The notes beneath the pieces are model-generated. The model saw only the letters and a list, made by a program, of their open reading frames with translations. It searched no databases and had not been told where the DNA came from. Both the position numbers and the translations under genes were made by a program. A stretch of DNA of 57,386 bases from Mycobacteriales bacterium (GTDB taxonomy: Bacteria; Actinomycetota; Actinomycetes; JAFAQI01): NCBI GenBank assembly GCA_035550055.1, contig DASZRO010000049.1, forward strand, positions 1 to 57,386. Reading direction: 5' to 3'. The stretch's first letter is position 1; every line of letters begins with the position of its first letter. Positions 21,382-33,363 of the stretch are shown piece after piece.

Positions 21382-22380
21382 CTATCGGCTCGGCGGCCGG
21401 GTCAACGGCCGGGTCAGTTGCCGGCCGAACACGAGCAGGGCCGCGAGCACCAGCAGCGGTACGAGGAAGACCGCCGGATAGTCGAAGCCCCTGGCGCGCG
21501 ACGGCAGCGCCACCAGCCGCGGCGCGATGACGGGTTCGGGCGCCGCCTCACCCGGTGCCTCGCTCGCTCGAGGGGGCGGCGCCAGCCCAGGGACCGCGAT
21601 CGAGGGAGCCGGGCCGGAGTCCGACGCAGCCGACGTGTCTGACGGCGACGGCGCGGGGTTCGACGGCGCGGGGTCCGGCGGCGAGCCCGTCGCCGCGCCG
21701 TCGGTCGTGGCGTTGTCGAGGATGAGGACGGGTGCGGTGGCGGAGCCCTTCGGCCGGGTGTCCGCCGAGACCGTGACGTCGAAGGTCGCGCCGAGTGAGA
21801 GCACCGGCAGCAGCGCAAGGCTGGTGCCCCGCTTCTCGAGGCGAGCGGCGATCGGTTTCAGGCCGATGTCGAGCTCCACCGCCGGGGTTCCGATGAGGTG
21901 GCTGACGGGCGCCCCCTGGCAGTCGACCGGAGGCGGCGGAGTCGTCGCTGCTTCGACGGCCTTGATCGGCGTCGTCGTCGTACACGCCTCGACCTTCGCC
22001 AGGTCCGGTGCGAGCGAACCGTCGAGTGGGCTGGTGTCCAGGGGCAGCCGCAACGTACCGCCGCTGATCGAGGTCGACGGGGGCAGCGGACGGCGCAACG
22101 CGAGGTAGCTGCGGGCCGACTCGCTGCCGCCGGCTGCGCCGATGTGCAACGTGCCGGCCGGGTAGACCTGGGGGAACGGCGACGGGATCGGCAGACAGAT
22201 CGACGCGATGCACAGCTTCGGGCTGCTGTACCAGGCTTCCGCACCCAGCGCGACGACCGTTTCACGGGCGGCGCTGGTGCCGCCGCTCGCGCTGGCGCCC
22301 GCCGACTGGACCGCCAGTGCCCCGGGAGCCAGCGCCGTACCGGTCAGGATCAACGGCAGCGCGTGCCAGCCGGCGTTCAT
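21382..22380 (-). CDS. Exported, C-terminally membrane-anchored protein of the hybrid transporter operon
   Basis: A 332-aa protein. It has an N-terminal signal peptide (HALPLILTGTALAPGALA), a folded Thr/Pro/Ala-rich extracellular part with four Cys (two in KLCIASICLP), a Pro/Ser/Ala-rich stalk (PPDPAPSNPAPSPSDT), then one transmembrane helix (AVFLVPLLVLAALLVFG) and a short Arg-rich tail. No enzymatic motif is seen; the mid-part, with AYLALRRPLPP-like beta repeats, could be a cell-surface structural domain. The ATG at 22380 overlaps the preceding membrane-protein gene (ATGA). As the last gene of the operon it may be a surface-exposed accessory of the transporter. I do not recognise the family with certainty. 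Confidence 0.75.
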   Translation of the reverse strand: MNAGWHALPLILTGTALAPGALAVQSAGASASGGTSAARETVVALGAEAWYSSPKLCIASICLPIPSPFPQVYPAGTLHIGAAGGSESARSYLALRRPLPPSTSISGGTLRLPLDTSPLDGSLAPDLAKVEACTTTTPIKAVEAATTPPPPVDCQGAPVSHLIGTPAVELDIGLKPIAARLEKRGTSLALLPVLSLGATFDVTVSADTRPKGSATAPVLILDNATTDGAATGSPPDPAPSNPAPSPSDTSAASDSGPAPSIAVPGLAPPPRASEAPGEAAPEPVIAPRLVALPSRARGFDYPAVFLVPLLVLAALLVFGRQLTRPLTRPPSR

Positions 22381-22742
22381 GCCCCACCGCGTTTCGCGCT
22401 CGCCCGCCGCGGCCGCGGGCGTGCCGCGGGTGCGGCCACGGGCGGCGCGGCGAGTCGGCGCCGCTCGAGCGCCGCGAGCGTGCCGACCCGCAGGAGCACG
22501 GCGTCGTCGTCGGCGCGCTCGCGTTCGGCACAGGCGCGCCCGACCTGGACGTAGCCGAGGACACATCCGGTCACCACCAGGGCGATGCCACCGATCCCGC
22601 CGCTCACCAACGCCGGGATCTGGTCGAACACGTCGAGGGTGCGGGCAGCGATCACGTAGCCGACCGTGATGGCGACGCCGCCGGCCACCACCAGAGCCGC
22701 GCAGGACCACAGCGCGAGGGCGAGCGGGCTGGACCGCTTCAT
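22377..22742 (-). CDS. Two-helix membrane protein of the hybrid transporter operon
   Basis: A 121-aa protein with two transmembrane helices (ALALWSCAALVVAGGVAITVG and ALVSGGIGGIALVVTGCVLGY) and a basic, Pro/Ala-rich C-terminal tail (PAARPRPRRASAKR) that would face the cytoplasm. No known domain. It overlaps its neighbours by 4 nt on both sides, so its translation is tied to them. Its likely role is an accessory or scaffold of the transporter; this is inference from position. Confidence 0.8.
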   Translation of the reverse strand: MKRSSPLALALWSCAALVVAGGVAITVGYVIAARTLDVFDQIPALVSGGIGGIALVVTGCVLGYVQVGRACAERERADDDAVLLRVGTLAALERRRLAAPPVAAPAARPRPRRASAKRGGA

Positions 22743-23047
22743 CGACCCTGCTCGCTCAGCCGGACGAGCTCGTCGAGGGCGTCGGCCATCCGCAGCGACT
22801 GCGCGCGCCGGGCCGCGGAGTCTCGCAGGCGCACGTCGATCGCGACCAGGGTGACTCCGAGGCAGACGAGGGCGAGTCCCGTGAAGCCCGCGCTCATCAC
22901 GTACGGGAGCTGGAGCGGTACGTCGATCTCGCCCGCCGTCTTGCCCCATGCGACGGTGATGAGCACGAATCCTGCGGCGGTGAGCAGCAGTCCGAGCCAG
23001 GTCCCGAGGTGGGGGATCCGGCGCAGCGGCGCGATCAGGTCCTTCAT
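22739..23047 (-). CDS. Two-helix membrane protein with C-terminal helix, hybrid transporter operon
   Basis: A 102-aa protein: helices at about 16-34 (LGLLLTAAGFVLITVAWG) and 47-67 (VMSAGFTGLALVCLGVTLVAI), then an amphipathic, charged helix (RLRDSAARRAQSLRMADALD). It resembles the next gene in layout, which suggests an old duplication or a paired complex. The ATG at 23047 overlaps the LivHMG stop (ATGA). Family not recognised. Confidence 0.8.
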   Translation of the reverse strand: MKDLIAPLRRIPHLGTWLGLLLTAAGFVLITVAWGKTAGEIDVPLQLPYVMSAGFTGLALVCLGVTLVAIDVRLRDSAARRAQSLRMADALDELVRLSEQGR

Positions 23048-26007
23048 CCGGCTGTCCTCACGAGAGCGGGCGTGCGACTTCGGCTGTCAGGGCGTGGGTG
23101 TTCCGCGTCGATCGATCCCGATCGCTGGATGGCGGTCAGGCTGCCCCCGAGGTAGGCCTCGACGACGTTCGGGTCGTTGCGCACGCGGTCGGGCGTGCCT
23201 TCGGCGATGATCTCGCCGTCGGCCATGCACACGATGCGATCCGCCATGGCCATGATCATCGGGATGTCGTGCTCGATGATGCACAGCGTCAGATCCAGGT
23301 CGCGTTTGAGCGTGGTCAGCAGGTTCTGCAGCGCCTCGGTCTCACACTGCGCGATTCCGGCGCACGGTTCGTCGAGCAGCAGCACCTCGGGCCCGAGGCC
23401 GACCAGGCAGGCGATCTCGGCGATGCGCCGGGTGCCGGTGGACAGGTTCTGGATCTGCGCGGCGCGATAGCGGTCCAGGCCCATCCACGACACGAGCTCG
23501 CGTGCCCGTTGCTCCTTGCGGCGCTCACCGCCGGTCAGGCCGAGAACTGCCGCCGTCAGGGTGCTGGGATCGGTGCGCTCGAGGGAGAGCGTGACGCACT
23601 CGAGAACGGTGAGGGTCGGGAACAGTGCGGCGTCCTGGAAGCTGCGGATCAGGCCGCGTTGGGCCCGGGCCTCCGGGCCGAGCGTTGTGACGTCCTCGTC
23701 GTGGAGGCGCACCTGGCCGGCGTCGGGAGTGGTGAAGCCGGCGAGCAGCTCGAACGTCGTGGTCTTGCCCGCCCCGTTGGGTCCGATGAGGCCGAGCGTC
23801 TCGCCGCGGTTCACCGCGATCGACACGCCGCGAACCGCGTGCACGCCGCCGAATGACTTGACCAGTCCGGTCGCCTCCAGGATCGGACGTACGCCGACCG
23901 GGCGTGGCGGCACGGTCATCGGCGGGGCCTTGGTGGGCGCCGCGATCTCGACCGCGCTCGCACTGCTCGACTCGGCGAGGTACGCCGCCTCGGCGTCGAC
24001 TCCGGCGCGCCGAGCGAGTGCCTTGACCACCGCGTCGCGGAGCGGGGTGAGCACGTGGATGAGGCCGCCGGGCAGATAGACGATGATCAACAGCTGGCCG
24101 AGCGCGGTGCCGGCGATCGCCAGGCTCTGGAGGTGACCGAAGTCGGGCAGCACGAACACGACAAGGGCACCGAGGACGGGCCCGATCAGGCTTCCGATCC
24201 CGCCCACCACGGTCATGACCGTCACCGACAGCCCGTCGTTCGGGTCGAAGCTCGCCCCGCCGAGCGTGAACAGCGAGTGCGCGTAGACCGCCCCACCGAT
24301 GCCGGCGATGAAGCCGGCGATCGCAAAGCCACGAATCTTGATCGCGGTCGCGGGCACCGTGAACGCGCGGGCGTTGTCCTCGTTGTCGCGGACCGCGACG
24401 AACAGCCGGCTCAACCCGCCTGACCGGATGTTGCGCGCGACCGCGAAGCAGACGACGGTCATCGCGAGTGCGAACCAGTAGTAGCGCTTGCCGGTGTCCA
24501 GGTGCACGCCCATGACGGACGGGCTGCCGGGACTCACCCCGTCGTACCCGAACAGCCAGCTCGCCGGAAGCAACCAGTTCGTGACGAGCAGCGCGAACGA
24601 CAGGGTGGTGACGGTGATGAACAGGCCTTTCGCACGGATCGCGAACAGCCCGAGCACCACCATCACGAGCGCGGCGGCGACACCCGCGTAGAGGAAGGAC
24701 AGGACGTAGTCGTGGGTACGCGAGGCGACCTCGTAGCTCGCGATCGAGCCGACCGCCGCGATCCCGAACTGTCCGATCGTCAGCTGACCGCCCAGCCCGG
24801 TGATGATCCCGACGGACAAGCCGACGATCACGAACGACAGGATCTGCGTCATCCGGACCGAGTTCGAGTTGGTGATGCCCAGCGGCAGGACCGCCAGCCC
24901 GGCCAGCACGACGAGCGTGATCGTCGGCGCGAGCGCGCGCACCGCCGGCAGCCGGCGCAACGCAGCAGGGATCGGTGCCGGTGCCGCGACCGTAGCCCAG
25001 GACCCTTTCTCCTCGGACCGGCCGGTGGGCGTCTTCAGGAGCACGAGCGCGCCGACGACGATCAGCACGAACAGGATGAGGCTTTCCACGCCGAGACCGC
25101 CGTAGTTCCAGAGCAACAGCTGCTCCAGGACCCCGATCGCCGTGCCCGCGACGAGAGTGAGCGGCAGGTTGTCCATCCGGCCGATCACCGCGGCGGCGAG
25201 CGCGACCTCGAGCAGCTGCGGGCCGAACTGCCCGGGCTCGACGCTCAACGTCGGCGCAGACATGATCGCGGCGAAGGCGGCGACTCCCGCGCCGAGGGCC
25301 CAGGCGAGCGAGTTCATCCGGCCCGAGAAGATGCCGGCCATCCGGGCGGCCTCGGGGTTGTCGGCCGCGCAGCGCATCGCGACGCCGACTCGGCTGTAGC
25401 GCAGGAACCCGCCGACCAGCAGGACGAGGATCGGCGAGAGGATCAGCATCGCGGAGTATGCCGGTCCGACCTCGAGCGCACCGACCCGGAACGACGGCAT
25501 GCCCGGTGGCGACGGGAAGACCCCACCCGCTCCTGCGCTCGGATCGATCAGCGTTGCGAAGACGACCAGGAACAGCCCTACGCCGAGCGTCGCCACGACA
25601 CTGACCGCGAGCGGCGCCTTGCCGAGCCGGCGGATCACGGCGGTCTCCGTCACCGCGCCCACTGCGCCCGCGATGGCCAGGGCAGGGACAAGTGCGACCC
25701 AGTACGGGAGGTGGGCCTTGGTGACCAGCAAGAAGAACGCCACCGACCCGAACGCGCCCATCTGCCCTTGCGCGAAGTTGATGACCCGGCTGGAGCGGTA
25801 GATCAAAACCAGGCCGACCGCGAGCAGCCCGTAGGTCACGCCGACCGTCAGGCCGAGCACGATGGCCGACGCGGGGGTCTGCCACCTGCCGCTGATCGTG
25901 CCCGAGACGTGAAGGACGTGCGGCAGCAGGAACTCCGCGACGAGGAGCGCAGCCGCGAGGATCGCGACCGTCACGGCGGCGGGGCGCGCCGCCCGGACCG
26001 CCGTCAC
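23044..26007 (-). CDS. LivH-LivM-LivG fusion: branched-chain-amino-acid-type ABC permease/permease/ATPase
   Basis: A 987-aa single polypeptide joining three normally separate proteins. Residues about 1-330 form a LivH-type permease (YGLLAVGLVLIYRSSRVINF, AMRCAADNPEAARMAGI). About 360-650 form a LivM-type permease (ITGLGGQLTIGQFGIAAVGS, AVRDNEDNARAFTV). About 707-960 form a LivG-type ATPase: Walker A GPNGAGKT, Q-loop IRSFQDAALF, Walker B VLLLDEPCAGI and switch His in IIEHD. The ABC signature is LSTGTRR instead of LSGGQ or the usual LivG form. GTG 26007 overlaps the MFS-LivF gene. It should make the membrane core of an importer powered with the partner's LivF-like ATPase. Confidence 0.95.
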   Translation of the reverse strand: MTAVRAARPAAVTVAILAAALLVAEFLLPHVLHVSGTISGRWQTPASAIVLGLTVGVTYGLLAVGLVLIYRSSRVINFAQGQMGAFGSVAFFLLVTKAHLPYWVALVPALAIAGAVGAVTETAVIRRLGKAPLAVSVVATLGVGLFLVVFATLIDPSAGAGGVFPSPPGMPSFRVGALEVGPAYSAMLILSPILVLLVGGFLRYSRVGVAMRCAADNPEAARMAGIFSGRMNSLAWALGAGVAAFAAIMSAPTLSVEPGQFGPQLLEVALAAAVIGRMDNLPLTLVAGTAIGVLEQLLLWNYGGLGVESLILFVLIVVGALVLLKTPTGRSEEKGSWATVAAPAPIPAALRRLPAVRALAPTITLVVLAGLAVLPLGITNSNSVRMTQILSFVIVGLSVGIITGLGGQLTIGQFGIAAVGSIASYEVASRTHDYVLSFLYAGVAAALVMVVLGLFAIRAKGLFITVTTLSFALLVTNWLLPASWLFGYDGVSPGSPSVMGVHLDTGKRYYWFALAMTVVCFAVARNIRSGGLSRLFVAVRDNEDNARAFTVPATAIKIRGFAIAGFIAGIGGAVYAHSLFTLGGASFDPNDGLSVTVMTVVGGIGSLIGPVLGALVVFVLPDFGHLQSLAIAGTALGQLLIIVYLPGGLIHVLTPLRDAVVKALARRAGVDAEAAYLAESSSASAVEIAAPTKAPPMTVPPRPVGVRPILEATGLVKSFGGVHAVRGVSIAVNRGETLGLIGPNGAGKTTTFELLAGFTTPDAGQVRLHDEDVTTLGPEARAQRGLIRSFQDAALFPTLTVLECVTLSLERTDPSTLTAAVLGLTGGERRKEQRARELVSWMGLDRYRAAQIQNLSTGTRRIAEIACLVGLGPEVLLLDEPCAGIAQCETEALQNLLTTLKRDLDLTLCIIEHDIPMIMAMADRIVCMADGEIIAEGTPDRVRNDPNVVEAYLGGSLTAIQRSGSIDAEHPRPDSRSRTPALVRTAG

Positions 26008-28190
26008 GCCACGCCCGCCTTGCTCGCGCCCTCGAGGAAGACGGCCCGCAGCAGGTCGTCGCGCGCCAGCAGCTCGCCCGCCTTCCCGTCGAATCGCATC
26101 TCGCCCTTCTCCATGAAGTAGGCGTGGTCGACGAGGGACAGCGCGATGTTGACCGACTGCTCGACGAGTACGACGGCGGTGCCGGCGGCGTTGATCTCGC
26201 GGACCAGGTCGAGCAACTGCCCGACGACGACCGGTGCGAGCCCGAGCGAGAGCTCGTCGATCAACAACAGCTTCGGCTCGAGGATCAGCGCCTTGCACAG
26301 GCCGAGCATCTGCTGCTCGCCGCCCGACAGGGTGGCCCCCAGCGACGCCTTGCGTTCGGCGAGCCGGGGGAAGGCGGTGAGGCACCGCTCGATGGCATCG
26401 TCGATCGTGCGCTTGTCGGCGCCGAGGGTGTAGCCGAAGCCACGCAGGTTCTCGACGACGGTCATCCGGCGGAAGACGGCGCGACCGCCCGGGATCTGGC
26501 TGATGCCGAGCCGCACCCGACGTTCGGCGTCGAGGTAGGTGATGTCGTCGCCGTTGAGGCGCACGGTGCCGGAGGATGGCAGTCCGATCCCGGAGATCAC
26601 CTTGAGCAACGTCGATTTGCCCGCGCCGTTCGTCCCGAGCAACGCGACCATCTCGCCCTCGTCAACCGTGAAGTCGACGTCGAAGAGCACTTGCAGCTTG
26701 CCGTAGGAGAAGTTGACCCCGGTTGCGGCCAGCAGCGGCGGCCGTCGCCCGTCGCGGTGAAGCGCGGCGAGATCCTGCTCCTCGAGGATGGCGTCGACCA
26801 TCCGGTCGATGTCGCTGTCGATCAGCTTGCCGGCCGACCGTACGACGAGGGAGCCCAACGTGCCGGGGACCAGCAGCGCGATCATCGTCCCCGTCGACCC
26901 GTACTCCTCGTAGACGCTGTTGAGCAACAGCACGCCCAGGATCGCGCCGAACCCGAGGGAGATGCCGATCATCGCGGCGGCGTGCGGCCGGTAGCGCGCG
27001 TCGACGATCGAGAGCACGATCGCGTTCAGGCCCGGCAAGGTGAGCACCAGCGCGGTGATCGCGAATGCGAACATCGCGACCATCGCGATCTTGTTGGGCA
27101 TGACCGCGGCGAGCGCGATGAACAAGACGATGCCGAAGATCGCGTAGCCGACCTGTTCCACGACCTTGGCCGGGCTGTGAGCGAAGGTCGTCTCGGCGAC
27201 CTTGCCGTAGACCAGCAGACCGAGGGTGGCGATGCCGTACGCCGTCGAGATGACGACGCCGCGCGCTGCCGAGTCGAAGTGCCAGCGGTCGACCAGGAAC
27301 GATGACAGGAACGTCGTGAACGGGATCGCGATGATGCCGAACACGAGAGTGCCCACGCAGATCCGCTGGATCGTGGGGATCAGCAGGATCCTCCTGACGA
27401 TCTCGAAGAACCCGAGCTGCGGCCCGCCCTCGACGGCGCGGTCGGCGTGCAGCTGTTCGGTGTCGAAGCGTCCCGCACCCGGGTCCCGAACTCCGATCGC
27501 GCACAGCGAGCTCAGCACCGAGATCCCGCCGAGCACCAGGAACACCCCGCGCCAGGTCAGGTCGAACGGCCCGGTCAGCAGCGACACCAGTAGCGGCGCG
27601 ACGATCTGCCCGACCACGGTGATCGCGCGGTATCCGGTGAGCACCCGCAGCCTGGCCTGTGGCGGATAGGTGTCGGCGAGGAGCGGCGTGTGCAACGCAT
27701 TGACGCTTCCGGTCGACAATCCGTCGGCGACCAGGACGAGAAGCAGTGCGACCAGCGACGTCACGAACCCGGTGAACAGCGTGATGACGCTCCACCCGAT
27801 CGCGGTGATCAGACAGAGCAGGCCGCGCCGCCCCCAGCTGCGGGCGAGTGCGGCCATGGGCAACGGCGCCACCGCCTGGGCCAGGAAGCCCAGCGACTGC
27901 GCCAGCCCGATCAGCCCGAACGACAGACCGAGGGTGTTGCGGACGTCGGGCGCGACGACGACGAGCGCGCTGCCCTGGAACAGGTCGACGAAGCCGAGCA
28001 CCCCCAACGCGACCATCGGGTAGAGCCCGACGCCGTGCTCGCGCAGGACGGCGCGAAGCGACCGCGGATCGTCCTGGGCCGGTTCAGCCTGCGTTCCCTG
28101 CAAGCCGAGTGTTGCGCGGGCGGCCTGACGCCGTGCCGCGAGACGGTCGCCGACCGGCGCCGGCACGGCCGCGCCGTTCGCGGCGGTCAC
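26004..28190 (-). CDS. MFS transporter fused to a LivF-type ABC ATPase
   Basis: A 728-aa fusion. Residues about 50-470 are a 12-helix major-facilitator domain (DLFQGSALVVVAPDVRNTLG; RSWGRRGLLCLITAIGW between helices 2 and 3). From about 485 on there is a complete LivF-like ATPase: Walker A GTNGAGKST, signature TLSGGEQQ, Walker B LLLIDELSLGLAP, and VEQSVNIAL. The Q-loop segment reads SQIPGGRAVF, with Gly where LivF proteins usually have Glu or Gln. No frameshift separates the two parts. GTG 28190 overlaps the lipoprotein gene (GTGA). An MFS carrier is a secondary transporter, so its covalent joining to an ABC motor is mechanistically puzzling; it may supply the ATPase partner to LivHMG. Confidence 0.95.
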   Translation of the reverse strand: MTAANGAAVPAPVGDRLAARRQAARATLGLQGTQAEPAQDDPRSLRAVLREHGVGLYPMVALGVLGFVDLFQGSALVVVAPDVRNTLGLSFGLIGLAQSLGFLAQAVAPLPMAALARSWGRRGLLCLITAIGWSVITLFTGFVTSLVALLLVLVADGLSTGSVNALHTPLLADTYPPQARLRVLTGYRAITVVGQIVAPLLVSLLTGPFDLTWRGVFLVLGGISVLSSLCAIGVRDPGAGRFDTEQLHADRAVEGGPQLGFFEIVRRILLIPTIQRICVGTLVFGIIAIPFTTFLSSFLVDRWHFDSAARGVVISTAYGIATLGLLVYGKVAETTFAHSPAKVVEQVGYAIFGIVLFIALAAVMPNKIAMVAMFAFAITALVLTLPGLNAIVLSIVDARYRPHAAAMIGISLGFGAILGVLLLNSVYEEYGSTGTMIALLVPGTLGSLVVRSAGKLIDSDIDRMVDAILEEQDLAALHRDGRRPPLLAATGVNFSYGKLQVLFDVDFTVDEGEMVALLGTNGAGKSTLLKVISGIGLPSSGTVRLNGDDITYLDAERRVRLGISQIPGGRAVFRRMTVVENLRGFGYTLGADKRTIDDAIERCLTAFPRLAERKASLGATLSGGEQQMLGLCKALILEPKLLLIDELSLGLAPVVVGQLLDLVREINAAGTAVVLVEQSVNIALSLVDHAYFMEKGEMRFDGKAGELLARDDLLRAVFLEGASKAGVA

Positions 28191-28654
28191 GGCGCGCTCT
28201 TCGGCAGGTCGAACTCGCGTACCCACGCGCTCTCGTTGAGTCGGTCGCCGTTGGGTGCGAGGAGTACGACGGTCGCTTGATGACGTTGGCGGGAGGCGCG
28301 GTCGTAGTCGAGGTCGGGGATGATCCGGATCGTGATGTGGTCCTGATCGGTCTCGTACACATTGGTGGCCGCCAGCAGCGCGGGCGTCGCACGGGTGCCC
28401 TTGGGCAGCACCGAGTCGATGTTGTGCCCGACTTTGACGGCTTGCTGGTCGATGAAGATCCCGAAGCGGTAGTCGCCCGGCGGCTTCATCGTCCACGACA
28501 GCGTCACCGGGAGGCGGGTCAGCTGGTCCTCCGCCGGCGCGGTGAAGCTGAGGCGGTGATCCTGGACGAACTCCAACCCGCTGCAGCCGCTGATGGCGGC
28601 GGCGGCCGTGACGGCGAGTGCCGTGGCCGTGAGCGATGGACCGGAGATTCGCAC
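28187..28654 (-). CDS. Small lipoprotein of the hybrid transporter operon
   Basis: A 155-aa protein with a signal sequence ending in the lipobox AISGC (Cys about 24), so it should be lipid-anchored on the outer face of the membrane. The mature part (LPVTLSWTMKPPGDYRFGIF, HITIRIIPDLDYDRASRQRH) reads as a small beta-sandwich. No known domain recognised. The GTG at 28654 starts it and its stop overlaps the MFS-LivF start. It could be a ligand-presenting or gating partner for the importer. Confidence 0.82.
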   Translation of the reverse strand: MRISGPSLTATALAVTAAAAISGCSGLEFVQDHRLSFTAPAEDQLTRLPVTLSWTMKPPGDYRFGIFIDQQAVKVGHNIDSVLPKGTRATPALLAATNVYETDQDHITIRIIPDLDYDRASRQRHQATVVLLAPNGDRLNESAWVREFDLPKSAP

Positions 28655-28661
28655 GGTGTGG

Positions 28662-29462
28662 TCAGGCGCTCGCCGGCGTCGTGGACGCGTCGACCTCGGC
28701 GTAGAAGTCGAGTGCCTCGCGGGTGACCCGCTCGATGTCCATCAGCAGGTAGTTGTGTGCCGCGCCTTCGTAGCTCGACAGCCGGGCGCCGGGGATGGTC
28801 CGGGCGATCTCCTGGCCCTTCTCGTACGGCACGAGGTTGTCCGCCGTGCCGTGCTGGACGAGGGCCGGAACCGAGATCGTGGCGGCGTCGCCGAGCGTCA
28901 TGCTGAACTCGGAGATGCCGACGTGTTGTGCGACGACCCCGCGGGTGGAGAACCGGTCCTTCTTCAACATCGCGTAGTCGCGCCGGGCGACGTCGGCGGG
29001 CACGTTCGGGTAGGCCTTGCTGCCGGTGAACACTCTGAGGACGCCCGGCGGGATCCGTAGGAGCACCGACCCGAGCACCGGATGCGGCTTGACGACCTCG
29101 GTCTTGATGGCCGTGCAGCCGAGGATGAGGGAACGTACCCGCTCCGGCGCGGTGATCGCGAGCTGTTGGGCGATGCCGCCCCCCATCGACACACCCCAGA
29201 CATGGGCCGAGTCGAGTCCCGCCGCGTCCATCACGGCGAGGGCGTCGGCGACCATCTCGGCGACCGACGCGGTCCGCGCCGCCCGGCTCTGCCCGGTGCC
29301 CCGGTTGTCGAACCACACGACGTGGTGCTGCTCGGTCAGGGCGTCGCGCACCGGCCACCACATCTCGGCGCTGTACTTGTGGCCCATGATCAGCAACAGC
29401 GGGGAGCCTTCGCCCTGCTGTTCCCAGTGGATCCGGACGCCGTTGCTGCTGACGAATGGCAT
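28662..29462 (-). CDS. Alpha/beta hydrolase
   Basis: A 266-aa Ser hydrolase of the alpha/beta fold. Nucleophile Ser92 lies in WGVSMGGG, the acid is probably Asp in HGTADNLVPYE, and the His in GAAHNYLLMD. FDNRGTGQSR is the usual loop after strand 4. The 7-nt gap to the lipoprotein and 24-nt gap from the binding-protein gene place it inside the transporter operon. It may hydrolyse an ester or lactone form of the imported compound, freeing an acid for the divergent acyl-CoA synthetase. Confidence 0.88.
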   Translation of the reverse strand: MPFVSSNGVRIHWEQQGEGSPLLLIMGHKYSAEMWWPVRDALTEQHHVVWFDNRGTGQSRAARTASVAEMVADALAVMDAAGLDSAHVWGVSMGGGIAQQLAITAPERVRSLILGCTAIKTEVVKPHPVLGSVLLRIPPGVLRVFTGSKAYPNVPADVARRDYAMLKKDRFSTRGVVAQHVGISEFSMTLGDAATISVPALVQHGTADNLVPYEKGQEIARTIPGARLSSYEGAAHNYLLMDIERVTREALDFYAEVDASTTPASA

Positions 29463-29486: not shown

Positions 29487-31100
29487 TCAGGAGAACGGCG
29501 TGACGGGGCCGGTGTAGTGGAAGCACCGGCAGCTCGAGTCGAAAGCCAACGGTCGGTACGCGCTTGCGCCCGCGTGGTGTTGCGGGTCGAGAGTCGAGGT
29601 GAACGTCACCGCGTCAGCCCGTGACGAGCCCAGCTTGTTGTAGCCGTCGAGCAGGCTGGCTCCGGTGATGTTCGAGGCGCCAGAGGCGTTCGCAGCGGCC
29701 TGGACGAACAGCATGGCGTCGCAGTACTGGAAGGTCGCGAACTCCTGCACGTTGTTGGTGAGCTGGCCGGTCGGCCGCTCGATCTCGGCGCACAGTCGGG
29801 TCGCGGAGTTCTCGAAGACGCTCGACCCGTAGGTGCCGACATCGGCGGTGGGCTGCCAACCGACACCGATCGCGCCGGCCAGCGCGCCGAGGACCATCTT
29901 GGTGTGCGCCTCGGCGAGTGCCCACGGGCTGTCGAGCGAGGTCAGCGCGTACTTGGGGTACCAGTGCTGCTGGTAGGCGTCCTGGATGAAGCTGCCTTCG
30001 ACGCCGGGCGCAAGGAAGAGCACGTTCGTCACGCCGTTCGCCCGCATGTGGAGTTCGTCGTTCGAGACGGTTTGCGCCTCGGCGACGGCCGCCTGCGTCG
30101 ATGGCGGGTACTCGATCCCGTACGAAGTGACCGAGGCCACCCTTCCCTTGAGCATGGGTACGACCACGTCGTTGTAAGCGTCGACCGCTGCGGTCTCGTT
30201 GGTGCCCAGCATGACGCCGACGCGGCTCTTCGAGCTCAGCACGTGGTCGGCCAGCATCGTCTTCACCAGCGCGGACATGACGTCCGTCGTCGTCGCCTCG
30301 TACGGGCTCACGAGGTAAGGGATGTTCCGGTAGGAGTTGTTGTCGTGGAGGTAGCCGCCTCCCGAGACATACGGGATGTGGTGGCTGCTCAGACAGGCGG
30401 CGAGATCGTTCGGGATGGCAAAGCCGACGGCGACGCCGATCGCGACGTGGTGGTCCTGCGTCCAGTCGCTGCAGATCGCCGCCATCGTGGTGGAGTACGG
30501 CTGCGTGCTCGTCAGCGGGATCGAGTAGTAGACCGGTTCGAGGACGTGCCCGGCGAGTCCGCCGTGCTTGTTCACGTAGCCGATGGCCGCGTTGGCGTCG
30601 GTCTGCAGGTTGCCGAGGTCGTCACTGCCCCCGAACAGCTTCGCGAAGGCACCGAGGTCCCCGCTGTAGACGATCCCGACCTCGACCGCCGACAGCTTCG
30701 CGGGACCCTTGTAGACCTTGCCCGTCGGCGTCGGCGTGGACGGCGGCGCGGTGGAACTCGGCGTCGCCGCCGAGGTCGCGCCGGTTGGGGCAGTAGCGCG
30801 CCCGGCGCGGCCCGTCGGGCTGGCGCTCGCCGAAATCGTCGGTTCCGCGCCGCCCGCGGTCGCCCTCGGGACGGCGGGGACCGTGCCGCTCGGACCGGTC
30901 GGGCTCGAGCCGGTCGCGGCGGTCGGGACGACCTCGCCGGGGACGATGACCTGGGTCGACCCGTCGAAGCCTTCGTCGGCACGCTGGCTGAGGACGGCGT
31001 GTGCGTTGCGGACCGTGGTGCCGCATGCCGCCACCGACAGCAGCGCGATGCCGGCGACCGCGGTGGTGCGTAGACGGCTTCGGCGGCTGCTGCGGTTCAT
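29487..31100 (-). CDS. Liv-type solute-binding lipoprotein of the hybrid ABC importer
   Basis: A 537-aa lipoprotein. ATG 31100 (MNRSSRRSRLR) gives a short signal with lipobox SVAAC at Cys26. A long low-complexity Pro/Thr/Ser/Ala linker follows (about 60-130), then a periplasmic-binding-fold type I domain (VEVGIVYSGDLGAFAKLFGG, LQTDANAAIGYVNKHGGLAG, HIPYVSGGGYLHD). This is the family that delivers amino acids, amides or aromatic/short acids to LivHMGF transporters. The linker is much longer than usual and would hold the receptor far from the membrane. It is first in the operon and diverges from the TetR gene. Confidence 0.92.
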   Translation of the reverse strand: MNRSSRRSRLRTTAVAGIALLSVAACGTTVRNAHAVLSQRADEGFDGSTQVIVPGEVVPTAATGSSPTGPSGTVPAVPRATAGGAEPTISASASPTGRAGRATAPTGATSAATPSSTAPPSTPTPTGKVYKGPAKLSAVEVGIVYSGDLGAFAKLFGGSDDLGNLQTDANAAIGYVNKHGGLAGHVLEPVYYSIPLTSTQPYSTTMAAICSDWTQDHHVAIGVAVGFAIPNDLAACLSSHHIPYVSGGGYLHDNNSYRNIPYLVSPYEATTTDVMSALVKTMLADHVLSSKSRVGVMLGTNETAAVDAYNDVVVPMLKGRVASVTSYGIEYPPSTQAAVAEAQTVSNDELHMRANGVTNVLFLAPGVEGSFIQDAYQQHWYPKYALTSLDSPWALAEAHTKMVLGALAGAIGVGWQPTADVGTYGSSVFENSATRLCAEIERPTGQLTNNVQEFATFQYCDAMLFVQAAANASGASNITGASLLDGYNKLGSSRADAVTFTSTLDPQHHAGASAYRPLAFDSSCRCFHYTGPVTPFS

Positions 31101-31134
31101 CGCACCTCGTCGTAGAGCAAGCACTGCGGGCCGG

Positions 31135-31150
31135 ACTATCAGTTGATAGT
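31135..31150. promoter_or_regulatory. Candidate TetR operator 1
   Basis: ACTATCA (31135-31141) and TGATAGT (31144-31150) form a 16-bp dyad with a 2-nt centre in the spacer between the binding-protein gene (31100) and the TetR gene. It lies 35 nt upstream of the binding-protein start, where it would cover a promoter. Confidence 0.55.
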
Positions 31151-31201
31151 TAGCCGTGAAGTAAGCCACCTGCTGTCCTGCAAGTCAAGGAAGGTTTGAT
31201 G

Positions 31202-31217
31202 CGATCGAACGATCGTT
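31202..31217. promoter_or_regulatory. Candidate TetR operator 2
   Basis: The sequence CGATCGAACGATCGTT contains the perfect 10-bp palindrome AACGATCGTT (31208-31217) and a repeated CGATCG. It lies just before the TetR coding region, and the TTG at 31216, an alternative start, falls inside it. It may serve autoregulation. Confidence 0.4.
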
Positions 31218-31251
31218 GACAGAGCGGCTCCGAGTTGGGTTTGCTTTCGGC

Positions 31252-31923
31252 GTGGGCAAGCGCAACGAGCGGCTCGCCGTTGCGCCTGCGACGGTGGTGA
31301 CTCGGCGCTGGCGAAGCGACCTCGATCCCCGCGCCCTGCCGCCCACCGAGCACCTGACGCTGGGGCAGCGCCGAGTGCTCGGCGCCTGCCTCGTGCTGTT
31401 CGCCGAGCAAGGCTTCGCCGCGACGTCGATCAGGGACGTGGCTGGCGCTGCCGGGATGCAGTCGGCAAGCCTCTACAACCATTTCGCGTCCAAGGACGCG
31501 ATGCTGACCGAGCTGGTGACGCTCGGAGTGGGCACGCACCTCGAGCGGCTGATCGCCGCAGTGGTGAACTCCTCAGCCGGACCGGTCGAGCAGCTGCGAT
31601 CGGCGATCCGCACCCATGTCGCGGTGCACTGCGAGTACCCGAACCTCGGTCTCGTCGTGAACCACGAGGTGCGACACCTGACGCCCGAGGCAGCGATCGC
31701 ACTCGAGTCGGTACGCCGGAAGTCCGGCGGCCTGGTGAGCGAGGTGCTCAACCGTGGGGTCGAGGAGGGAGTGTTCACCCTCGACGCGCCGCAGGCCGCG
31801 ATCTTCGCGATGGCCAGCATGGGGGTCGACGCGGCCCGCTGGTATCCCTATCAAGACGAGATCTCGGCAGAGCAGCTGTGCGACGTCTACGCCGAGCTGG
31901 CACTTCGGATGGTTGGAGCCTGA
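31252..31923 (+). CDS. TetR-family transcriptional regulator
   Basis: A 223-aa regulator if started at GTG 31252; a TTG at 31216 would add 12 residues. The HTH is clear: VLGACLVLFAEQGFAATSIRDVAG followed by MQSASLYNHFASKDAML. The C-terminal ligand domain matches TetR_C proteins near fatty-acid and CoA-ester genes (LGLVVNHEVRHLTPEA). It ends 3 nt before the acyl-CoA synthetase and diverges from the hybrid transporter operon, so it probably controls uptake and activation together, perhaps released by an acyl-CoA. Confidence 0.9.
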   Translation: MGKRNERLAVAPATVVTRRWRSDLDPRALPPTEHLTLGQRRVLGACLVLFAEQGFAATSIRDVAGAAGMQSASLYNHFASKDAMLTELVTLGVGTHLERLIAAVVNSSAGPVEQLRSAIRTHVAVHCEYPNLGLVVNHEVRHLTPEAAIALESVRRKSGGLVSEVLNRGVEEGVFTLDAPQAAIFAMASMGVDAARWYPYQDEISAEQLCDVYAELALRMVGA

Positions 31924-31926
31924 CGC

Positions 31927-33363
31927 ATGACCTCGATCCCGGCGGCACTGCGCGCGTTCGCGGCCGCCAAGCCCGACGCCCCGGCGGTCACCGACACCAA
32001 AGCGACACTGTCGCGTCGGGAGCTGCTCGACCGCGCCGACACCGTGGCTCACGCACTGCATGACCAAGGCGTCGGGGTGGGCGACCTGGTCTCGATCGGG
32101 CTGCCGAGCGACGCCTCCCACGTGGTGGCTTCGATCGCCACGTGGCTGGTGGGGGCGACGCCACAGCCGGTAGCGGCGAACATGCCGCGCGCCGAGCTGG
32201 ACGCGGTCCTCGAGCTGGCGAAGCCGGCGATGGCGATCGGCTTCGACGGCGGCGACCTCGCGCCGACGATGCTCACGCTGCCCGAGCCGACCGGGCAGGC
32301 TCGCGAGCCGTTGCCCGACGTGGTCTCACCCAACTTCAAGGCGCCGATGTCCGGCGGGTCGACCGGTCGGCCGAAGCTGATCGTTGCCACGAACCCGGCC
32401 GAGGTGGAGGGGCTCGCCCTGCTCGGCCAGGTCATGCGGATCAAGGCCGAGGACACGTCCTTGATCACTGCGCCGATGCACCACAACGGGCCGTTCCTGA
32501 CCTCGACCGCGACGATCGCGCTCGGCGGCCATGTCGTCCTGCCGGGCCGCTTCGACGCCGAGACCACCCTCGCGCTCATCGAACGGGAACGTGTCGGATG
32601 GGTCTACCTCGTGCCGACGATGATGTCGCGGATCACGAAGCTGCCTGACGACGTCCGCCTCCGCTACGACCTGTCGACCCTGCACACGGTGATGCACATG
32701 GCGGCGCCGTGCCCGCCGTACCTCAAGCAGGCGTGGATCGACTGGCTCGGCGGAGAACGCATCATGGAGCTCTACGCCGGGACCGAGGCGCAGGCTGCGA
32801 CGTTCATCAGCGGCACCGAATGGCTCGAGCACCGCGGCTCGGTCGGCAAGCCACTGATCGGGCAGATGCAGATCTGTGATCCGGACGGCAAGCCGTTGCC
32901 GACCGGCGAGGTCGGCGAGGTGTGGATGAAGTCCGACGCCGGCCCGACTTACAAATACATCGGAGCGGAGCCGAGGGCCCGCGAGGACGGCTGGGAGTCA
33001 CTCGGCGACCTGGGCTGGATGGACGCCGACGGCTACCTCTACCTCAACGACCGGTTGACGGATATGGTCCTGGTCGGCGGCAGCAACGTCTACCCCGCCG
33101 AGGTCGAGGCCGCGCTCGATGAGCATCCGCACGTGCTGTCGTCATGTGTCATCGGGCTGCCGGACGACGACCTCGGCAACCGGCTGCACGCGTTGGTGCA
33201 GCTTCGCGACGAGGTCAGTGACGACGAGCTGCGGTCGTGGTGCGGCGAGCGGTTGACGAAATACAAGGTGCCGCGGACCTTCGAGCGGGTGGCGCAGCCG
33301 CTGCGCGACGATGCGGCGAAGGTACGCCGCTCGCAGCTTCGCGCCGAACGCCTTCCCGGTTAG
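31927..33363 (+). CDS. Acyl-CoA synthetase (AMP-forming)
   Basis: A 478-aa ANL-superfamily ligase, a little short of the usual 500-550 aa. The P-loop-like motif SGGSTGRPKLI, the adenylation motif ELYAGTEAQAA, the hinge region YLNDRLTDMVLVGGSNVYPAEVEA and a Lys in the C-terminal RDDAAKVRRSQL are present. It would activate a carboxylic acid with ATP and CoA. Co-transcribed with TetR (3-nt gap) and divergent to the importer, it likely handles the imported acid. Which acid cannot be told; the family includes fatty, aromatic and steroid-acid ligases. Confidence 0.92.
   Translation: MTSIPAALRAFAAAKPDAPAVTDTKATLSRRELLDRADTVAHALHDQGVGVGDLVSIGLPSDASHVVASIATWLVGATPQPVAANMPRAELDAVLELAKPAMAIGFDGGDLAPTMLTLPEPTGQAREPLPDVVSPNFKAPMSGGSTGRPKLIVATNPAEVEGLALLGQVMRIKAEDTSLITAPMHHNGPFLTSTATIALGGHVVLPGRFDAETTLALIERERVGWVYLVPTMMSRITKLPDDVRLRYDLSTLHTVMHMAAPCPPYLKQAWIDWLGGERIMELYAGTEAQAATFISGTEWLEHRGSVGKPLIGQMQICDPDGKPLPTGEVGEVWMKSDAGPTYKYIGAEPRAREDGWESLGDLGWMDADGYLYLNDRLTDMVLVGGSNVYPAEVEAALDEHPHVLSSCVIGLPDDDLGNRLHALVQLRDEVSDDELRSWCGERLTKYKVPRTFERVAQPLRDDAAKVRRSQLRAERLPG

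Follow-up and report, generated by a model that had tools for sequence, protein, structure and literature searches.

Primary transporters, driven by ATP, and secondary transporters, driven by ion gradients, are usually treated apart, yet in the gene considered here the two are covalently joined, across a whole phylum and in association with one importer. The gene lies on contig 49 of the genome of an uncultured Mycobacteriales bacterium. All 57,386 nucleotides of this contig were analyzed (hereafter the window), and within them a major facilitator superfamily (MFS) carrier runs without interruption into a LivF-type ABC ATPase. An initial annotation made from the DNA alone offered three readings of this arrangement, namely a hybrid transporter, the delivery of a LivF subunit to the adjacent LivH-LivM-LivG (LivHMG) chain, or a carrier turned into a scaffold. 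The locus therefore raises three questions: whether the fusion is genuine, which transporter its ATPase serves, and what its MFS domain does.

A fusion gene conserved across Actinomycetota

The fusion gene occupies positions 26004..28190 of the minus strand, from a GTG start at 28190 to a TGA stop at 26004, and encodes a protein of 728 aa; the initial annotation had the coordinates right but left the strand unstated. Pfam places MFS_1 at residues 64-419 (E 1.2e-28) and ABC_tran at residues 503-646 (E 1.9e-29), and an AlphaFold2 model based on 70 sequences (mean pLDDT 91, pTM 0.87) contains 12 MFS helices and a LivF-type ATPase. The GTG-to-TGA frame, the Pfam domains, and the model thus all agree with the earlier description of a single 728-codon frame holding an MFS carrier and a complete LivF-like ATPase. 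Combining Pfam, the model, the structural match to SPNS2, and a table of residues by clade, we assigned the 12-helix MFS domain to residues 50-456 (26823..28043; this and all operon coordinates below are on the minus strand). It is followed by a helical linker of 30 residues (residues 457-486; 26733..26822), delimited from the model and an alignment of clade A, the window's own clade, and by the ATPase (residues 487-728; 26004..26732), which carries Walker A TNGAGKST, PGGR at the Q-loop, LSGGEQQ, LLIDELSLG, and VEQS at the H-loop. In the model, a helix following TM12 (residues 457-479) runs into the ATPase, and of the 39 clade-A proteins, 38 have a linker of 28 residues when measured between fixed points.

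MFS-LivF is a hybrid conserved across Actinomycetota. A frameshift, misassembly, or annotation error merging two genes, a concern raised by the initial annotation, is exceedingly improbable, given that the source genome alone holds four full-length, stop-free MFS-LivF genes, on contig 49 (the window) and on contigs 83, 106, and 28 (54, 55, and 41% identity to the window protein, respectively), and that fused homologues occur in many independent assemblies, including those of the cultured genera Kribbella, Actinomadura, Actinocrispum, Haloechinothrix, and Phytoactinopolyspora. With near-duplicates taken out, we counted 79 distinct fused loci across the phylum. In a survey of the class, 27 of 394 genomes had a match in a frame of at least 683 aa, and in a survey of the phylum, fused copies were present in 19 of 396 genomes; both counts were read off match tables and then checked on fetched loci. 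A scan of genomes of all species with two clade-A peptide patterns returned 29 loci, every one fused and every one from Actinomycetota, and plasmid records yielded one distant fused copy (Embleya), unannotated there. Consistently split homologues, the other objection anticipated at the outset, did not turn up either: none of the 79 fused operons contains a split MFS/LivF pair, and no clade-A homologue was found split. Two candidates that resembled fusions by frame length (L118 and L104) were rejected because they are without LivF, and PADLOC matches were set aside as generic ATPase matches.

In the open-access literature we found no published work on MFS-LivF or MFS-ABC fusions. In the sensor kinase-MFS family TC 2.A.1.34 (PMC3924187), a complete MFS carrier is likewise joined to a second functional domain, but that domain is a sensor kinase and not an ABC ATPase.

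Association with a LIV-type importer

The operon is transcribed in the order binding protein, alpha/beta hydrolase, lipoprotein, MFS-LivF, LivHMG, and three further genes that we call TMa, TMb, and SURF. The gene adjoining the fusion on its downstream side (23044..26007) encodes LivH, LivM, and LivG as a single chain of 987 aa, in which PF02653 matches two stretches, corresponding to two LivH/LivM-type permease domains, along with ABC_tran and BCA_ABC_TP_C. Overlaps of 4 bp (GTGA) are found at both ends of the fusion gene, its start overlapping the lipoprotein stop and its stop the LivHMG start, and from these overlaps the three genes are probably translationally coupled.

Each of the four copies in the source genome adjoins a LivH-LivM-LivG chain. 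The initial annotation had asked if MFS-ABC fusions always keep such company, and they do: LivH, LivM, or LivG lies near the fusion at 79 of 79 distinct loci (78 in the fetched flank, and L114 once the region was extended). None of these loci contains a second, separate LivF. Because Liv genes are present near every fusion and no other LivF accompanies them, the fused LivF very probably serves the nearby LivHMG importer, and the delivery of LivF to LivHMG is for the same reason the best supported of the three readings proposed initially. The MFS domain directly precedes LivF in every layout, of which there are three: clades A and C pair MFS-LivF with LivHMG, most of clade B combines LivHM with MFS-LivF-LivG, and in the third layout LivHM accompanies MFS-LivF. 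Pairwise distances of the MFS and LivF parts correlate with r = 0.85 (permutation maximum 0.26), and the main clades of the LivF and MFS trees match; these were quick trees, of which the fine branching was not relied on. Judged from these distances and trees, MFS and LivF diversified together.

We consider it fairly likely that MFS-LivF is an obligate hybrid LivF subunit of a LIV-type (HAAT) importer, one that brings along an N-terminal MFS domain of 12 helices. Its partners in that importer would be the LivH-LivM-LivG chain and the binding protein encoded in the operon, and the Ig-like lipoprotein would sit alongside. Under LivHM, LivF has to form a pair with LivG, so a helical linker whose length is fixed would keep one MFS domain next to the ABC permease in each complex. 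Such an importer would share with LIV-I/HAAT systems (LivKHMGF), which use ATP to take up amino acids or related solutes, the two BPD_transp_2 permease domains, the LivG and LivF ATPases, and a binding protein in the operon, but it differs in that LivH, LivM, and LivG form one chain, in that LivF is joined to an MFS domain, and in its additional lipoprotein and small membrane proteins. Annotation as 'MFS' alone or as 'ABC' alone would then hide a subunit of one system.

The extracellular substrate-binding protein (29487..31169) is putatively of a divergent LivK type; it has no Pfam match of its own, and its operon homologues match Peripla_BP_6 (E 2.4e-11 and 3.6e-8). Ahead of the conserved part, its N-terminal stretch seems to be of low complexity, and the homologues share several invariant cysteines. 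It is followed by the alpha/beta hydrolase (28662..29462; Abhydrolase_1, E 5.9e-24). Esterase-like hydrolases and acyl-CoA ligases recur near fused loci, which hints at an ester, a fatty acid, or an aromatic acid as the candidate substrate of the importer. The small lipoprotein (28187..28654), directly upstream of the fusion gene, adjoins MFS-LivF in most clade-A loci and has the invariant residues P40, W54, D69, R138, and E141. It has no Pfam match, but its model is a beta sandwich, which suggests an FN3/Ig-like fold, although its structural matches are all weak, with a Z of 7.4 at best.

Downstream of LivHMG lie two small membrane proteins, TMa (102 aa; 22739..23047) and TMb (121 aa; 22377..22742), and the secreted protein SURF, which has a C-terminal membrane anchor (21382..22380). 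None of the three matches a Pfam family above the cut-off; one SURF homologue shows a weak, sub-threshold CBM96 match. All three genes recur in the paralogous operons (contigs 83, 106, and 28) as well as at loci L133, L134, and L145, and SURF or a relative is also present at L136, L141, and L148. Divergent from the operon, positions 31216-33363 of the plus strand encode a TetR regulator and an AMP-dependent acyl-CoA ligase; some of the other fused loci have ligases too.

ATPase motifs of the fused LivF

For the two ATPases of the system, the best NCBIfam profiles were LivG (PRK11300) and LivF (PRK11614), each far under its equivalog cut-off; for the LivF equivalog NF008626, the score was 190 bits against a cut-off of 441. 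The LivF part is nearest to the E. coli LivF and UrtE profiles, also with scores under the cut-offs, and it shares 41% identity with Thermotoga 1ji0 (structural Z 32.8). Its Walker A, signature, and Walker B motifs are intact. The Q-loop site is PGGR-like and the H-loop is VEQS in all fused clades, whereas ordinary LivF, as in LIV-I/HAAT importers, has PEGR and mostly VEQN, VEQF, or VEQY. LivG keeps canonical Q- and H-loops, and the composite ATP sites of MFS-LivF/LivG are therefore probably asymmetric, as they would be in LIV systems generally. The initial annotation correctly reported a glycine at the Q-loop position, from which it proposed weakened coupling to a permease. This proposal receives little support, because the glycine is fixed across the fused LivF clade as a whole and because even ordinary LivF departs from the canonical residue here, having Glu and not Gln.

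The source genome also encodes LivH, LivM, LivF, and LivG in one chain at three loci (L034:8006-11656, L035:7611-11468, and L037:4812-10373), with open frames of 1217 to 1854 aa. These chains share the VEQS H-loop with the fused proteins, and two of the three share the Q-loop hallmark; one falls inside the fused LivF clade, but they are without an MFS domain.

Coupling residues and possible role of the MFS domain

The nearest structure to the MFS domain is human SPNS2 (Z 37.9 over 397 residues, rmsd 2.3), followed by SotB and SLC17-type carriers, and the nearest solved sequences are HnSpns and DgoT. In DgoT, neutralization of D46 (the TM1 Asp) or of E133 ends active transport (PMC6532931); in HnSpns, D41 (TM1) and R122 (TM4) form a salt bridge, and E129 is the proton switch (PMC9440201). 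We placed these functional residues by profile alignment to HnSpns and DgoT in clades A (n = 39), B (n = 20), and C (n = 10). At the position of the TM1 Asp (HnSpns D41, DgoT D46), clade B has Asp in 20/20 proteins and clade C has Glu in 7/10, whereas clade A has Asp in 1/39 and Gln in 33. The TM4 Arg (R122/R126; RxxxG) is present in 20/20 proteins of clade B, 7/10 of clade C, and 1/39 of clade A, and the TM4 Glu is missing from all three clades. The Asp of motif A, in the TM2-TM3 loop, is common, if not universal, across the MFS; it is present throughout clades B (20/20) and C (10/10) and in 0/39 proteins of clade A. The window protein has Gln72 in TM1, Arg117 at the motif-A position, and Leu153, Asp156, and Thr160 in TM4, the last at the Glu site. 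The comparison with active carriers recommended by the initial annotation thus reveals that clade A has lost the known H+-coupling residues, which clade B retains and clade C mostly retains, and that the window's clade differs from Spinster (Spns) and SLC17/DgoT-type carriers, despite the common fold, in both these residues and the ATPase fusion. The single clade-A member with TM1 Asp and TM4 Arg (L116) is sister to the rest of the clade; for this reason, the losses look stepwise, with motif A lost first.

These losses speak for an explanation in which the clade-A MFS domain transports nothing and either anchors and positions LivF or senses the membrane or a ligand and regulates the ATPase, and it fits the same explanation that the most conserved loops are on the cytoplasmic side, facing the ATPases. 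We nevertheless think it rather unlikely, as no helices of clade A are better conserved than TM1 and TM4, which line the cavity, as new residues have become fixed, such as the clade-specific Asp156 on TM4 in 34 of 39 proteins, and as clades B and C, with the same fusion, mostly keep the coupling residues. The new TM4 Asp argues for re-specialization rather than decay of the clade-A MFS. The initial suggestion of a carrier turned scaffold therefore agrees with the lost H+-coupling residues but not with a domain that stays conserved and has gained a clade-specific Asp. As part of the hybrid LivF subunit that we favor, the MFS domain may offer an organic-acid or lipid-like solute, either the importer's own or a related one, a second route or a gate that does without the known Spns/DgoT proton-coupling residues.

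Relatives in which one part stands alone weigh against the hybrid subunit and bear on a further alternative. Among the loci seen were 11 standalone MFS relatives, all on the B/C side of the MFS tree and 8 inside clade B, with no LivF in the fetched flanks, indicating that this MFS type can act without LivF. Conversely, some MFS-free LivHMFG chains carry LivF of the fused clades, as at L007, whose LivF is inside the clade-B LivFs, so the MFS domain is dispensable in some lineages. That each part exists alone, and that clade B retains all three coupling residues and clade C most of them, would suit two independent transporters that are merely co-translated: the MFS would be a conventional secondary carrier whose coupling is rewired, the ABC system would be a conventional LIV importer, and the fusion would set only their ratio and location. 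This explanation also appears somewhat improbable to us, because the junction is conserved throughout the phylum, because clade-A linkers hardly vary in length, and because no split pair was found in any fused operon. The independent-carrier and scaffold-only explanations differ on the role of the MFS domain, and both partly overlap with the hybrid LivF subunit.

For that hybrid subunit, one may speculate that the ATP cycle of LivHMGF is mechanically coupled to the MFS cycle via the rigid linker, with ATP hydrolysis serving to gate or drive an MFS domain that lacks the known proton-coupling residues, a mechanism we regard as doubtful at present. Clades with and without these residues, together with MFS-free relatives, form a natural series for asking if an MFS carrier can come under the regulation, or even the drive, of an ABC motor, and what becomes of a carrier once its source of energy is a different one.

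At L033:5644-9414 and at L049, the MFS domain fused to a clade-A LivF is very divergent; in the MFS tree these two domains lie on a long branch, and more of their signature residues are gone.
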